DNA of 64,000 bases, taken from positions 124,001-188,000 of the forward strand of contig NZ_VTPS01000001.1 of assembly GCF_008274215.1 (NCBI RefSeq), in the 5' to 3' direction. The DNA is from Calorimonas adulescens (GTDB lineage: Bacteria; Bacillota; Thermoanaerobacteria; Thermoanaerobacterales; UBA4877). A program made the translations under genes and the position numbers. Within the stretch, counting starts at the first letter, position 1; every line of letters begins with the position of its first letter. The notes under the pieces are model-generated. The model was not told the DNA's origin. It did not search any database and was given only the letters and a program-made list of their open reading frames with translations. Of this stretch, positions 44,303 through 50,296 are shown piece after piece.

Positions 44303-44333
44303 TAAAAGTAAAGAGGGTACTCACCCTCTTTAC
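44303..44333 (-). terminator. Intrinsic terminator after alaS
   Basis: An 11-bp stem GTAAAGAGGGT/ACCCTCTTTAC with a GAGT-type loop and TTTTAAT tail on the minus strand, starting in the last alaS codon. Confidence 0.85.
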
Positions 44334-46963
44334 TGCATCTTATCTTCTATATATCTCCGGCACGCCAGGAATGCCTCATCTAACCTTGAACTGTCTTTCC
44401 CACCGCCTTGTGCCATGTCTGGCCTACCTCCACCACTTCCATTCAGTATGGCGGAGACCTCTTTTATAATCTCCCCGGCCTTAAGTCCTTTTTCAATAAT
44501 ATCCTGTGTAACACTTGCCACCAGATTTACCTTACCATCCTCTACACCCGCCAACAGTAATACGCCAGATTTTAATTTTGATTTGAGCAGGTCGTTTAAG
44601 TCTCTAAGGTCCTTATTCGTATAGGAATTCAGTTTAAGTGTCAGCAGTCTTACACCTTTTACATCAATAGTTCCTTTAAGGTATTCATCGACAGACATGT
44701 TCATTATTTTTTGTTTCAAGGTTTCTATCTCTCTATCCTTATCTTTGATAAGGCTTAACATTTCAATTACCCTGTTTTCTAAGTCATTCTCATTTATCTT
44801 AAGATAATCTGCAATACTGGATACAAGCTTCTTATATCCGCTCAGATATTCATAAGCCCCCGGTCCGGTACGAGCCTCTATCCTACGCAGTCCTGCACCA
44901 ACCGCACCCTCAGAAACAATCTTGAACACACCTATCTCTGAAGTATTCTTCAGGTGGGTACCACCACAGAGCTCCATACTGTAGTCCCCAGCCTTTACTA
45001 TCCTTACCCTGTCACCATATTTTTCTGTGAAAAGTGCCATCGCTCCAATCTTTTGAGCTTCTTCAAGAGTTGTCACACTAATTTCAACTGGAAGGGATTC
45101 ATAGATCTTTTCATTTACCCTTCTTTCAATTTCATCAAGCTGTTCCTGGGATAGCCCTTGATAATGAGAGAAATCGAACCTTAAATACTCCGGAGTCACA
45201 AGAGAACCTGCCTGATGTACGTGTTCACCCAGTATTTCTCTCAATGCCTTGTGTAGCAGGTGTGTTGCAGTGTGATTTCTTGCTGTATTCATTCTAATGC
45301 CCTTATCCACCTCAGCATTCACCACATCTCCAACACTGATAATTCCTCGTCTTATTTTACCGATATGGATATGTTTATTTAACACTTTTTTACAGTCAAA
45401 TACAATAATATTTACATTATTGTTGTAAATTGTGCCCTTGTCACCTACCTGTCCACCGCTTTCAGCATAAAACGGGGTTGTATCTAAGATTATACCTACC
45501 TCTTCTCCCTCTGATGCACTGGATACCAGTTCTCTGTCTTTTAATATGGCAAGAACCTTGCTCTTGGACTCCAATCTTTCATATCCTACAAATTCTGTAC
45601 TGTAGGCCCTTAGTTCCTCCATAAGAGCATCATTAGCCCAAAGTGAGTTGTCCTCTATCTTATTCGCTCTCGCTCTCTCCTTCTGAATACTCATTTCTCT
45701 ATTAAAGCCTTCCTCATCTACCTCTATACCTTGCTCCTCTAGTATCTCCTTTGTCAGGTCGAGAGGGAAACCGTAAGTATCATAAAGCTTAAAGGCATCC
45801 TCTCCTGATAAAACTGCTTTACCTTCTGCCTTCAGCCCATCTATATAAACCTGAAGTTTGCTTATACCCTGGTCTATAGTCTCATTAAACCTCTCCTCTT
45901 CAAGCTTAACAACCTCTTTAATATAATCAAGTCTATCTGTAAGTTCTGGATATGCACTTATGTAGGTCCCAGCTACACTATCGACCAGTTTATAAAGGAA
46001 CGGCTCATTCAATCCAAGCAGTTTGCCATGTCTTGCAGCCCTTCTCAAAATCCTCCTTAACACATAACCTCTACCCTCATTGGATGGTAGTATGCCGTCA
46101 CCTATCATAAAGGTTATCCCTCTTATATGATCTGTTATTACCCTTATACTGACATCCCTCTTGCGGTCTTCATTATATTTAGTGCCGCTCATCTTTAATA
46201 CATCATCCATTATCCTTTTTACCACATCCACTTCAAAAATATTGTCCACTCCCTGCATTATTGCAGCCATTCTCTCAAGGCCCATACCTGTGTCTATATT
46301 TGGGTTGGCTAATCTGTTATAGTTTCCTGCCTCATCTTTGTCGAACTGTGTAAAGACGAGATTCCAAAATTCCATAAATCTGTCACAGTCACAGCCCGGT
46401 GCACAGTCTGGTTTACCACATCCCTTTTCAACCCCTCTATCAAAATACAACTCTGAACATGGGCCACATGGCCCTAATCCTATCTCCCAAAAATTGTCCT
46501 CTTTTCCCATCCTTATTATTCTTTCATCAGGTACACCAACGACCTTGTTCCATATTTCAAAGGCCTCATCATCATTTTGATATATTGTAACCCATAGCTT
46601 ATCTTCAGGAAGTTTGAGCCACTGTGTGGCAAACTCCCATGCCCACGGTATTGCGCTCTCTTTAAAATAATCCCCAAAGGAAAAATTGCCCAGCATTTCA
46701 AAAAATGTAGCATGTCTTGCAGTCTTGCCTACCCTTTCGATATCAGGAGTTCTGATACATTTCTGACAGGTGGTCACCCTCTTGCGCGGTGGTACCTCTT
46801 TGCCAGTAAAATAAGGTTTTAACGGAGCCATACCTGAATTTATCAGGAGAAGGCTTTTATCATTATGTGGTATTAAAGGAAAACTTTTTAACCTCAGGTG
46901 TCCTTTGCTCTCAAAAAAACTCAAAAATTTCTCTCGTATTTCGTCCATTGACATCCATTCCAT
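44330..46963 (-). CDS. alaS: Alanyl-tRNA synthetase
   Basis: 877 residues, full length. Catalytic class II core ([20 protein letters not shown]), tRNA-binding domain, editing domain with [11 protein letters not shown] and [13 protein letters not shown], and the C-terminal DHHA1 part with [20 protein letters not shown] before ATG 46963. The long leader is a T-box. Confidence 0.97.
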
Positions 46964-46989: not shown

Positions 46990-47227
46990 TAATAATAAAA
47001 AAACCCTAAAACTTTATCGTTTTAGGGGCGAGGTTTCCCGTGGTACCACCCTATTTGCCATACGGCCTCTCATTGGTTAACGGATATTTCCGGCACCAGT
47101 TACTGCAGGTTCTCCGGTGCAGCTCCGAGGTGGCGTTCGATAGGTATGCCAGAAGCTTCCACCAACCGCTTCCTCTCTGAAAGGTCATACACCTATCTAC
47201 TCTTCCTCTTCATAACTTTTAGTAGTG
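46990..47227 (-). promoter_or_regulatory. T-box riboswitch of alaS (specifier GCC, Ala)
   Basis: The leader contains the T-box core GGGTGGTACCACGG (47038-47051), the stem I distal sequences and a terminator hairpin CCCTAAAAC/GTTTTAGGG with T7 (46996-47027). In the specifier bulge GAAC-GCC-ACC (47132-47134 for GCC), the codon GCC is that of alanine. Uncharged tRNA-Ala would stabilise the antiterminator and switch alaS on. Confidence 0.95.
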
Positions 47228-47233
47228 ATTTCA

Positions 47234-47262
47234 ATTATACAAAATATGTTGAAATCTGTCAA
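47234..47262 (-). promoter_or_regulatory. Consensus SigA promoter of alaS
   Basis: TTGACA (47257-47262), 17-nt spacer, TATAAT (47234-47239): a perfect match. The -35 overlaps by one base the 18-bp repeat bounding the neighbouring insert, so the promoter was left intact. Confidence 0.88.
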
Positions 47263-47279
47263 TGCAAATTTATTTATAA
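47262..47279 (+). repeat. 18-bp direct repeat, alaS side of the insert
   Basis: ATGCAAATTTATTTATAA, identical to 49177-49194. The pair bounds a 1.9 kb insert and is expected to be a target-site duplication. Confidence 0.75.
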
Positions 47280-47358
47280 GCTTTTTGCGTTGTGGACAAT
47301 TTTAGTAAATTATCCTTCCAATAATTGCTAATATATACCATTATTGAATGGATATACA

Positions 47359-47613
47359 TGATTTGGGCATATATCAGGAGTACAGGTGGAATACAAGGGG
47401 GCGGTCTATGAAACGGAACTATTTATTAAGCCTAACAAGGTTGCGGATAGTGCTCCAAAGGAACGGAAGTCTACTGCTTATACACCACCAGATACCCACT
47501 ACTATAAATACGGTCAAAGTCTGTTTAAGCAAGTTACATTTGAAGGCTGCGACCAAGACATACTTGAGATGCTCTGTGAGATATCTCTTGGTAAATACAA
47601 AAAGATGGCTTGA
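47359..47613 (+). pseudogene. Unrecognised remnant ORF in the insert
   Basis: A plus-strand frame (unusual here) of about 84 codons with no good start: after a stop at 47356 it reads FGHISGVQVEYKGAVYETEL, then KPNKVADSAPKERKSTAY, TPPDTHYYKYGQSLFKQ and DILEMLCEISLGKYKKMA. A GTG at 47386 lacks a ribosome site. It looks like the C-terminal end of a mobile-element protein, but I cannot name the family. The next 240 bp (47614-47859) hold no frame I can support. Confidence 0.4.
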
Positions 47614-47859
47614 TATTTAAGTTTTCAGTTAAAGTTCTCCATTCCCATGTTGTCAAGGCACCGTGGAATAAATGGGAGGTGCCTGCATTACAGGAAGGAA
47701 ACTGTTTATGCCGCTTGCCTTTTTACGGGCAAATTTTAACCTCTTCTCCTGCCTTCCGATGAGGATGTGGTCATGGAGGCATAACCCATTAAGTTTGTTT
47801 TATTAAGTTACATTTTCAAAACGGTCTGGCAAAACATACCCCCCCACTTTTAAAATTAT

Positions 47860-48852
47860 TTAGGGTTTCTGAGTAAGGCTGCTTTTGTCTTTTACCGTCC
47901 ATCTGCCATTCTCTTTTACCAAAACAAAATTGATTTTGGAAATATACTCTCCATACCTCCCCGGCTGAGTCACAATAACAGTTTCCCCTGATTTATTCTT
48001 GTATTTATGCTCAGGTATATTAACATGGGTATGCGCGGCAACAATAGCATCGATACCATCCGTACTTTGAGCCAGTTCTTTAATCCTGTTACCAGTATCC
48101 TTTGACTTTAGTGATTCTTCACCAGAGTGGACAACGGCAATGACAATGTCTGCCCCGTTGTACCTCAGCAACTCAGGCCATCGCTTGCTATTGACTTCCT
48201 GGACGATATCCTTTAATTCCAAAGTCCCTTTGTATTGCAGTAAGTCTTTCAGCTCCCGTGGGCCATTAGATTCACCCACCTCCTTGATAGTGAGGCCCAA
48301 GATACCTACTTTTACAATACCTTGTTCCGTTTCGATTTCTTTAATGATATAGGGATTGACATAGTGGGCATGGTAATTCGAGGTCTCATATAGATTAGCT
48401 GACAGAACTGGTATACCATAATCGGTAAAATCTAAAACCAGCTCATCTAAAGAATCCTTGTCGTTAGATACAAACTCATGATTTCCCAGCACCACGGCAT
48501 CATAACCTAGTTTGCCCATTTCACGCACGATGGGCGGTGTCCTTCTCTGGTGGTTTGAGTTAGGACCGGACAACCTGAACCATTGGGTCATCAATACGCT
48601 ATTAGTAGAGTCGAAAAAATCCCCCGCATCTACCAGAATAAGGTTTTTATCTTTTTTTCTCTCTTCTTGTACGTATTCAACAAGTTTAGTGGGGATCGCA
48701 CCATGCAAATCAGCAGTTGCTAAAATAGTTAGCTTAACTTCCCTATTTGGAACAAATGTGTTAACTGGCTTTACGATATCAAACTTAGTCAGCACAATTA
48801 GAAAAACAATAACCATTGTTAAAATAAGACCCCAGATTTTCCTGTTGCTCAT
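47860..48852 (-). CDS. Metallophosphoesterase, 5'-nucleotidase-like
   Basis: 330 residues: an N-terminal membrane anchor or uncleaved signal (about 8-25) then a calcineurin-like domain. Metal motifs: ATADLHGAIP (DxH), VDAGDFFDST, VLGNHEFVS (GNHE), VVHSGEES and AAHTHVNIPE. The C-terminal substrate domain of 5'-nucleotidases is missing, so the substrate is open; it probably acts outside the membrane. Start ATG after AAGGAG. It is the only intact gene of the insert. Confidence 0.8.
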   Translation of the reverse strand: MSNRKIWGLILTMVIVFLIVLTKFDIVKPVNTFVPNREVKLTILATADLHGAIPTKLVEYVQEERKKDKNLILVDAGDFFDSTNSVLMTQWFRLSGPNSNHQRRTPPIVREMGKLGYDAVVLGNHEFVSNDKDSLDELVLDFTDYGIPVLSANLYETSNYHAHYVNPYIIKEIETEQGIVKVGILGLTIKEVGESNGPRELKDLLQYKGTLELKDIVQEVNSKRWPELLRYNGADIVIAVVHSGEESLKSKDTGNRIKELAQSTDGIDAIVAAHTHVNIPEHKYKNKSGETVIVTQPGRYGEYISKINFVLVKENGRWTVKDKSSLTQKP

Positions 48853-48959
48853 TGATTCATTACTCCTTTCAGATATAGGCCCCCATGAGGTCGTATAATA
48901 TTAATATTACTTTAATTGTACTACCCTTTTTACTTTGTGTGTATTATACTCCACTGCTG

Positions 48960-49176
48960 CTCCCTTGTTATACTGACAGACACACTATTTTTGTATCTCC
49001 TAATAAGGACAAGCTCTCTATTGAAGAACAGTTAGAAGGTAAAATAGTAAATCAAACTCAGTTTGAAAGGGCTATGGGTGAATTGGGCATCACCATCATA
49101 AATGCTAGATCCCCTCAAGCTAAAGGCCGTATCGAAAGGCTGTGGGAAACGTTTCAGGATAGACTAAAAGTGGAAC
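48960..49176 (+). pseudogene. Transposase fragment (rve/DDE domain)
   Basis: The frame reads YTDRHTIFVSPNKDKLSIEE and then ARSPQAKGRIERLWETFQD, ending RLKVE at the repeat. YTDRH holds the second catalytic Asp and GRIERLW the Glu of the DDE triad of an IS481/IS1202-like (formerly ISNCY) transposase. The N-terminal DNA-binding domain, first Asp and C-terminal third are missing. The upstream 75 nt of frame (from 48885) are probably not part of it. Confidence 0.75.
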
Positions 49177-49194
49177 ATGCAAATTTATTTATAA
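49177..49194 (+). repeat. 18-bp direct repeat, permease side of the insert
   Basis: ATGCAAATTTATTTATAA, identical to 47262-47279. It includes the stop codon of the AI-2E permease gene on the opposite strand. Confidence 0.75.
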
Positions 49195-50205
49195 CTGAGC
49201 TAAACGTATCAACACTCTCCTGATCACCGCAGCCAGTGGCACTGATACAAGCATACCTATTATTCCGAAAAACTCCTGACCTAAAAGCAAGAGAAACATA
49301 ACCATTAATGGATGCAATCCTAAATTTTCACTTAAAATCCTGGGAGCTAAAATGCCGCTTTCTATTTGCTGTACAACCAGATATATAATTAAGGCATAGA
49401 TAGCCTTCTGAGGCGAGTCTAATAAAGCCATCATGACTGTGGGTATTGCAGCTAATATTGGCCCAAAATAGGGAATAAAATTTAATATACCCGTTAATAT
49501 GCCCAATATTATAGCTAGTTTAACCCCTATTATAGCAAGTCCCACTGCAGTAAATGTCGCTACAAACAGGTTTATATAGAACTGGCCTCTTATATATCCA
49601 TTTATAATACCTTCAACGTCTCTCATTATAAATTCCAATGTCTGCCTGTCTTTTTCAGGTATTAAAAGATAAAAGTTTGCATATATTTTCTCACCATCCA
49701 TAAGTATATAAAAAGAAATTATAGGAGCCAGTATGATATTTAAAAGCGACGAAAATATAGAACCAACCCTATCAGGCAGCCCCTCCAGAAGACTTATAAA
49801 TGACTCGTTTGCCCTATCATAAAATTCAGAAATTGCCTCATCTACACCAGGTATAGACCTTAACCGTTCCTCTAAAACATTTAATTTTTCTTCTGCACTG
49901 TATCTGATGTTGGGTAGTTCACTAATGAATTCGTTAATTTCTGAGGTTATATGCGGTGTTAAAAACAAAAACAACAGCAAGATTACGATCAAAATTGCAA
50001 AAAAAATTATAAGTATACTATAGCTGCGTCTCACTCCTTTATTCTCTAGATAATTAATCAAAGGATAAACCAGGTAGGCAATTATTCCACCTATCATAAA
50101 TGGCATTAAAACATTTAATAAATTGTTTCTGTAAATATATATTAAAATAATTAATAAAATGATTATTAAATATCTTGCTGTTATTTTTATAACATCGTGT
50201 TTCAC
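49189..50205 (-). CDS. AI-2E family transporter (YdiK/YrrI-like permease)
   Basis: 338 residues and about seven to eight helices: paired helices at the N-terminus, an amphipathic middle (LNVLEERLRSIPGVDEAIS), then four to five helices with IGVKLAIILGILTGILNFIPYFGP, a strong family mark. Often called AI-2 exporters, but many family members move ions or other solutes. GAGGAG fits GTG 50205. It is the usual upstream neighbour of alaS. Confidence 0.85.
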   Translation of the reverse strand: MKHDVIKITARYLIIILLIILIYIYRNNLLNVLMPFMIGGIIAYLVYPLINYLENKGVRRSYSILIIFFAILIVILLLFLFLTPHITSEINEFISELPNIRYSAEEKLNVLEERLRSIPGVDEAISEFYDRANESFISLLEGLPDRVGSIFSSLLNIILAPIISFYILMDGEKIYANFYLLIPEKDRQTLEFIMRDVEGIINGYIRGQFYINLFVATFTAVGLAIIGVKLAIILGILTGILNFIPYFGPILAAIPTVMMALLDSPQKAIYALIIYLVVQQIESGILAPRILSENLGLHPLMVMFLLLLGQEFFGIIGMLVSVPLAAVIRRVLIRLAQL

Positions 50206-50296
50206 ATATATTCTCCTCACCAGGTCGTTTTAAACGTCTTAAATATATCAGAAAAAGGTGCATAAAAAGTATTCTTTTTATGCACCGATAAAAAAT

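Follow-up and report, generated by a model that had tools for sequence, protein, structure and literature searches.

A degraded insert between alaS and a permease gene in Calorimonas adulescens, bounded by a direct repeat abutting the alaS promoter, and its likeness to IS1202-type elements

Introduction

The closest described systems belong to the IS1202 family of insertion sequences, which was defined in 2023 and includes cargo-bearing members termed tIS (PMC10132070). For members with long target duplications no conserved target was found, for want of independent examples (PMC10132070). In the ISAjo2 subgroup, which has a related transposase, duplicates 3-5 bp and uses dif/pdif targets, recruitment by DNA-bound host XerC was proposed (PMC10132070). 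In the literature searched, which covered a minority of subscription papers and no preprints, nothing equivalent to promoter targeting was met for IS1202 or any other IS element. For Ty3-type elements, eukaryotic retroelements that integrate at Pol III promoters, it is established that recruitment works through protein contact.

Here, an insert upstream of the alanyl-tRNA synthetase gene (alaS) of Calorimonas adulescens is compared with these systems. "The window" refers to the whole analysed stretch of 64,000 nucleotides.

Results and Discussion

The repeat and its site

ATGCAAATTTATTTATAA was found as an exact direct repeat at 47262-47279 and 49177-49194, as claimed in the first-pass annotation. 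No other exact direct repeat with copies less than 3 kb apart reaches this length in the window, and no repeat as long as 18 bp was seen in 20 Markov-simulated windows. The DNA between the copies, 1.9 kb in length (47280-49176), separates the alaS promoter from the upstream permease gene. The features around the insert are:

44330-46963, minus strand: alaS, alanyl-tRNA synthetase (ORF of 877 aa)
47021-47222, minus strand: T-box leader of alaS (Rfam RF00230, 141.5 bits)
47234-47262, minus strand: alaS promoter (12/12 consensus match)
47263-47279, plus strand: left copy of TGCAAATTTATTTATAA, read as a 17-bp target duplication (exact repeat; 17 bp is usual in intact relatives)
49178-49194, plus strand: right copy of the duplication (exact repeat; ORF list)
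49189-50220, minus strand: AI-2E-type permease (PF01594, 1.1e-70), ending inside the right duplication copy

The alaS promoter consists of TTGACA (47262-47257), a 17-bp spacer and TATAAT (47239-47234), and its -35 box abuts the duplication. Promoter, T-box, alaS and permease gene are all untouched by the insertion, and the N-terminus encoded by alaS is 95% identical to that of the nearest relative (G001; same family, other genus).

The preferred reading of the 18-bp repeat is a target duplication of 17 bp with the 18th base shared, since the duplications of intact relatives, described below, are exactly 17 bp in 19 of 29 cases. The left duplication copy plus the A at 47262 gives the 18-bp repeat. 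On the left, this extra A closes TGTCAA; on the right, where it stands at 49177 before the duplication (GGAACA), it agrees with the A that ends ACA. The idea that the duplication was originally longer and later shortened by deletions was disfavoured because the relatives mostly have 17 bp. The right copy carries the last codon and the stop codon of the permease gene. Removal of one copy together with the insert joins the permease gene to the alaS promoter, as had been noted, and leaves the stop codon 11 bp from the -35 box. The corresponding gap is 8-9 bp in the two class relatives counted (L015 and L009), and the 11-bp gap of the reconstructed single-copy site is an ordinary arrangement.

Among 30 relative loci checked, alaS adjoins the permease gene in 27, and one of the three non-adjoining loci is the window's own truncated locus. 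No comparable insert at the alaS-permease junction was found among the relative loci checked (27 adjoining). The nearest relative has neither insert nor repeat, and its permease-alaS spacer is longer.

Contents of the insert

Four pieces were distinguished between the two copies of the repeat:

47280-47365, no strand: AT-rich piece of 86 bp, 28% GC (composition; profile test not significant)
47366-47831, plus strand: IS1202-type remnant A, a transposase C-terminus (ORF 47386-47613) and 3' part (protein and DNA matches to G005, G182, G018 and contig C1 of the same genome)
47860-48852, minus strand: intact metallophosphoesterase gene (330 aa; PF00149, 3.1e-14)
48955-49176, start approximate, plus strand: IS1202-type remnant B, a DDE-domain fragment (NF033594, ISNCY_2, 7.4e-26)

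Plus-strand transposase debris and an intact metallophosphoesterase gene had been recognized previously, and both are present, the debris as two separate IS1202-type pieces. An ORF formerly listed as unknown (47386-47613) turned out to be the C-terminus of the second transposase. Remnant B shares 81-92% DNA identity with copies in G003 and 77-78% with G011. Its homology stops at 49176, one base before the right repeat, in agreement with the earlier remark that the transposase fragment is cut exactly there. In remnant A, a degenerate right terminus was located near 47831 with the right-end profile. C-termini and flanking residues (QDRLKVEL type versus QSRLPVEF type) place remnants A and B in different IS1202-type subgroups, and the duplication can therefore not be traced to a particular element. 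The difference in subgroup was also the reason for rejecting a circularly permuted single element.

The 86-bp AT-rich piece occupies the expected place of an IS left terminus, and no TGT terminus was recognizable in 47280-47365 with the terminus profile. A degenerate left end at 47280 was considered and rejected, as its profile rank was only in the top 8% of positions; TTGTG at positions 11-15 from 47280 is in the right register for a left end, but weak. With the profile test no IS terminus was recognizable at either junction, and the earlier judgement that a simple intact IS is insufficient is upheld. The insert is termed a relic and not a family member, because neither edge resembles a terminus.

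The metallophosphoesterase has a 5'-nucleotidase-like N-domain and an N-terminal hydrophobic stretch, and its matches to the NCBIfam models of 2',3'-cyclic nucleotidases are below cut-off. Related proteins with 70-71% identity occur in two MAGs, one of Tepidanaerobacteraceae and one of Syntrophomonadaceae, and the DNA is 74-78% identical to G064 and G105. In the Tepidanaerobacteraceae MAG (L079, 4060-4120) the related gene is followed by an apparent tRNA gene 3' end, as at integration sites. A phage or plasmid source was rejected: there was no phage match and no viral contig, and the plasmid matches cover only the metallophosphoesterase stretch, in two Paraclostridium plasmids. The whole composite insert was not found in any other genome searched, and there is no second copy of the insert DNA in its own genome. 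A search of that genome for a full-length element, which had been suggested as a check, gave no complete IS1202-type transposase.

Intact relatives and their promoters

Element ends in intact relatives were placed by TGT...ACA together with flanking repeats. This gave a set of 29 elements from 11 genomes of other Bacillota, 11 of the 29 being supplied by one complete genome (G011). Duplications were 17 bp in 19 elements, 16 bp in four, 18 bp in three and 15, 20 and 25 bp in one each, in a set where the requirement for TGT, ACA and a repeat of at least 12 bp favours long duplications, 31 of the 60 fetched elements having no such repeat. The complete genome holds 12 IS1202-type copies (L189-L200); for the 11 with placed ends the duplications measure 17-18 bp, and almost every one of these copies adjoins promoter-like sequence. 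The first-pass annotation had pointed to an IS1202-type element with a long target duplication, and this part stood, the right fragment being of ISNCY/IS1202 type and the duplications of relatives mostly 15-18 bp. It had overlooked the second transposase remnant and the promoter that the repeat abuts.

The opposite strand of the left flank in intact relatives is a sigma-70-like promoter starting at the duplication edge. When 17 bp was assumed for all elements, positions 1-6 at the edge read T25 T22 G21 A18 C15 A14 of 29, and an AT-rich -10 hexamer was present at positions 24-29 (n=29). Promoters were scored out of 12, by the number of bases agreeing with TTGACA and TATAAT at a spacing of 16-18 bp. 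At the observed edge the mean score was 9.90/12 without slack (n=29), and with one base of slack 26 of the 29 left flanks scored at least 9. Right flanks had a mean of 5.76, with 2 of 29 reaching 9, and random positions a mean of 5.14, with 0.6% reaching 9. Plotted against offset, the score has a sharp peak only at 0 and adjacent offsets. The -35/-10 spacer was 17 bp in 23 elements, 18 bp in four and 16 bp in two (n=29). In all 29 the transposase-start end lies toward the promoter, which points away from the element. Judged by rough criteria for ORFs and ribosome sites, 22 of 29 target promoters are followed by a gene start, against 11 of 29 right flanks.

Since the score was defined after the motif had been seen, a second set of left ends, outside the 29 elements, serves as a check: the same promoter pattern was observed in 19 of 31, a few ends being counted twice. 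One of these ends, with a score of 11/12, belongs to Paenibacillus cellulosilyticus (L205). Among intact elements, the one closest to remnant B lies in G003, and its duplication of 18 bp adjoins TTGACA-16-TATTAT.

From these sequence patterns, the long-duplication IS1202-type elements of this clade target sites that abut sigma-70-like promoters. Such targeting would account for the position of the window repeat beside the alaS -35 box, at offset 0, the register of the intact relatives. Promoter abutment is thereby stronger evidence than length alone that the repeat stems from an IS1202-type insertion.

Compared with the long-duplication subgroup of the IS1202 family (PMC10132070), the insert has an ISNCY/IS1202-type transposase in fragments only (B by NF033594, A by homologous C-termini) and a duplication of 17-18 bp, in the range above 15 bp that marks the subgroup; the intact relatives collected here share the TGT...ACA ends. 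The insert differs in having two truncated pieces in place of a complete transposase gene of about 390-510 aa, and in place of TGT...ACA terminal inverted repeats at its edges it has only the ACA before the right copy. Promoter targeting has not been described for that subgroup. With the promoter-abutting elements it shares a duplication at a -35 box, that of the 12/12 alaS promoter, and a left end facing the promoter, as judged from the plus-strand remnants. The ISAjo2 subgroup is similar in its related transposase and in the fixed distance and orientation to a host protein binding site, but its 3-5 bp duplication at dif-like sites differs from the duplications here, which are mostly 15-18 bp at promoters in the relatives and 17-18 bp at the window site, where likeness to dif was compared by eye.

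Origin of the insert

Probably, an IS1202-family element was inserted upstream of the alaS -35 box, duplicated 17 bp and later lost its interior. An element of the ISNCY, long-duplication kind, with its transposase on the plus strand, would have been inserted directly upstream of the box and would have duplicated 17 bp of target. This step is supported by the relatives, which share the duplication length, promoter register, orientation and ACA before the right copy. Deletion and rearrangement would then have removed its termini and the greater part of its transposase, perhaps when an excision was aborted and the ends rejoined, and what was left would be a mosaic of the metallophosphoesterase gene and two transposase remnants. 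The right junction, GGAAC-A-duplication, would fit a deletion that began in the middle of the transposase gene and stopped at the final bases of the element. Both edges would come to lie at the duplication if excision was aborted and followed by rejoining or capture.

Both edges do coincide exactly with the duplication, and no IS terminus stands at either, as would also be expected if an IS1202-type element was cut out and the break closed with scrap DNA holding IS debris and the metallophosphoesterase gene. The two remnants, being truncated pieces of different elements, fit such a repair event as well. However, the genome yielded no Ku gene, so that classical end joining, for this course as for rejoining after abortive excision, is not at hand, and it has no source copy of the captured DNA; this course is considered rather unlikely. 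Cargo-bearing tIS members are described in the family (PMC10132070), and the two remnants, both on the plus strand, flank the metallophosphoesterase gene, which could suggest that two IS1202-type copies in the same orientation brought the gene in as a unit, made the 17-bp duplication and both decayed. The different subgroups of the remnants speak against this, as a single transposase would need to work on both; the outer termini have gone even though the two copies of the duplication still agree at 18/18 positions, and the composite is absent from all genomes searched. Arrival as a composite transposon is therefore judged improbable.

The left piece could instead be native permease-alaS spacer, with no transposition involved and the second 18-mer copied locally in the course of a rearrangement, for instance through template switching. 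Part of the left piece may indeed be native spacer, as 47262-47336 can be aligned weakly and colinearly with the spacer of the nearest relative (p 0.02-0.3, varying with the anchor). The alignment was, however, not significant in most settings, the length, promoter position and orientation of the repeat match those of intact relatives, and the 11-bp gap from stop codon to -35 box in the single-copy site is near that of two relatives. An origin of the repeat without transposition is thus very unlikely, and insertion of an IS1202-family element followed by loss of its interior is preferred.

Possible recruitment by RNA polymerase

An explanation for the promoter register could be that the transposase is recruited by promoter-bound RNA polymerase. 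This is suggested by the constant position of the duplication edge at the -35 box in spite of a -35/-10 spacer that ranges from 16 to 18 bp, and by the related ISAjo2 group, for which use of XerC has been proposed. Direct recognition of the promoter sequence by the transposase is a possible alternative. On balance, we give about even chances to the proposal that RNA polymerase holoenzyme bound at a promoter recruits the transposases of long-duplication IS1202-family elements, which then integrate in one orientation and at one place just upstream of the -35 box, sparing the target gene, with the window insert as one fossil of this process.

Promoter abutment offers, for this clade, an answer to the target question left by PMC10132070. 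The family may use different DNA-bound host complexes, XerC at dif and perhaps RNA polymerase at promoters. Promoter targeting would explain how such elements spread without gene disruption, and their insertions would mark promoters in unstudied genomes. If true, polymerase-recruited integration of IS1202-type elements would be a bacterial counterpart of promoter-targeting retroelements. Ty3-type integration likewise occurs at a fixed position beside a transcription complex and spares the gene, but the elements are unrelated, and for the IS1202-type ones recruitment is only inferred.

Other IS1202-type copies

Three group-A copies are cut at a near-identical transposase codon: the window copy at 47366, L057 (G018) and L002:1. 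L057, an internally deleted element, has a left end of 46 bp joined on at the group-A cut point, and contig C1 of the window's own genome (L002:1) starts exactly at that point. Perhaps these copies represent a recurrent non-autonomous form. In L060 (G182), most of the DDE domain of an IS1202-type transposase is deleted in frame. Transposase relics were also observed beside short regular repeats resembling CRISPR arrays, in L034/L088 (G000:C2:177463-178236) and L049 (G003:C8); in translation these repeats read LAYLQGIET and QFHNGPIET.
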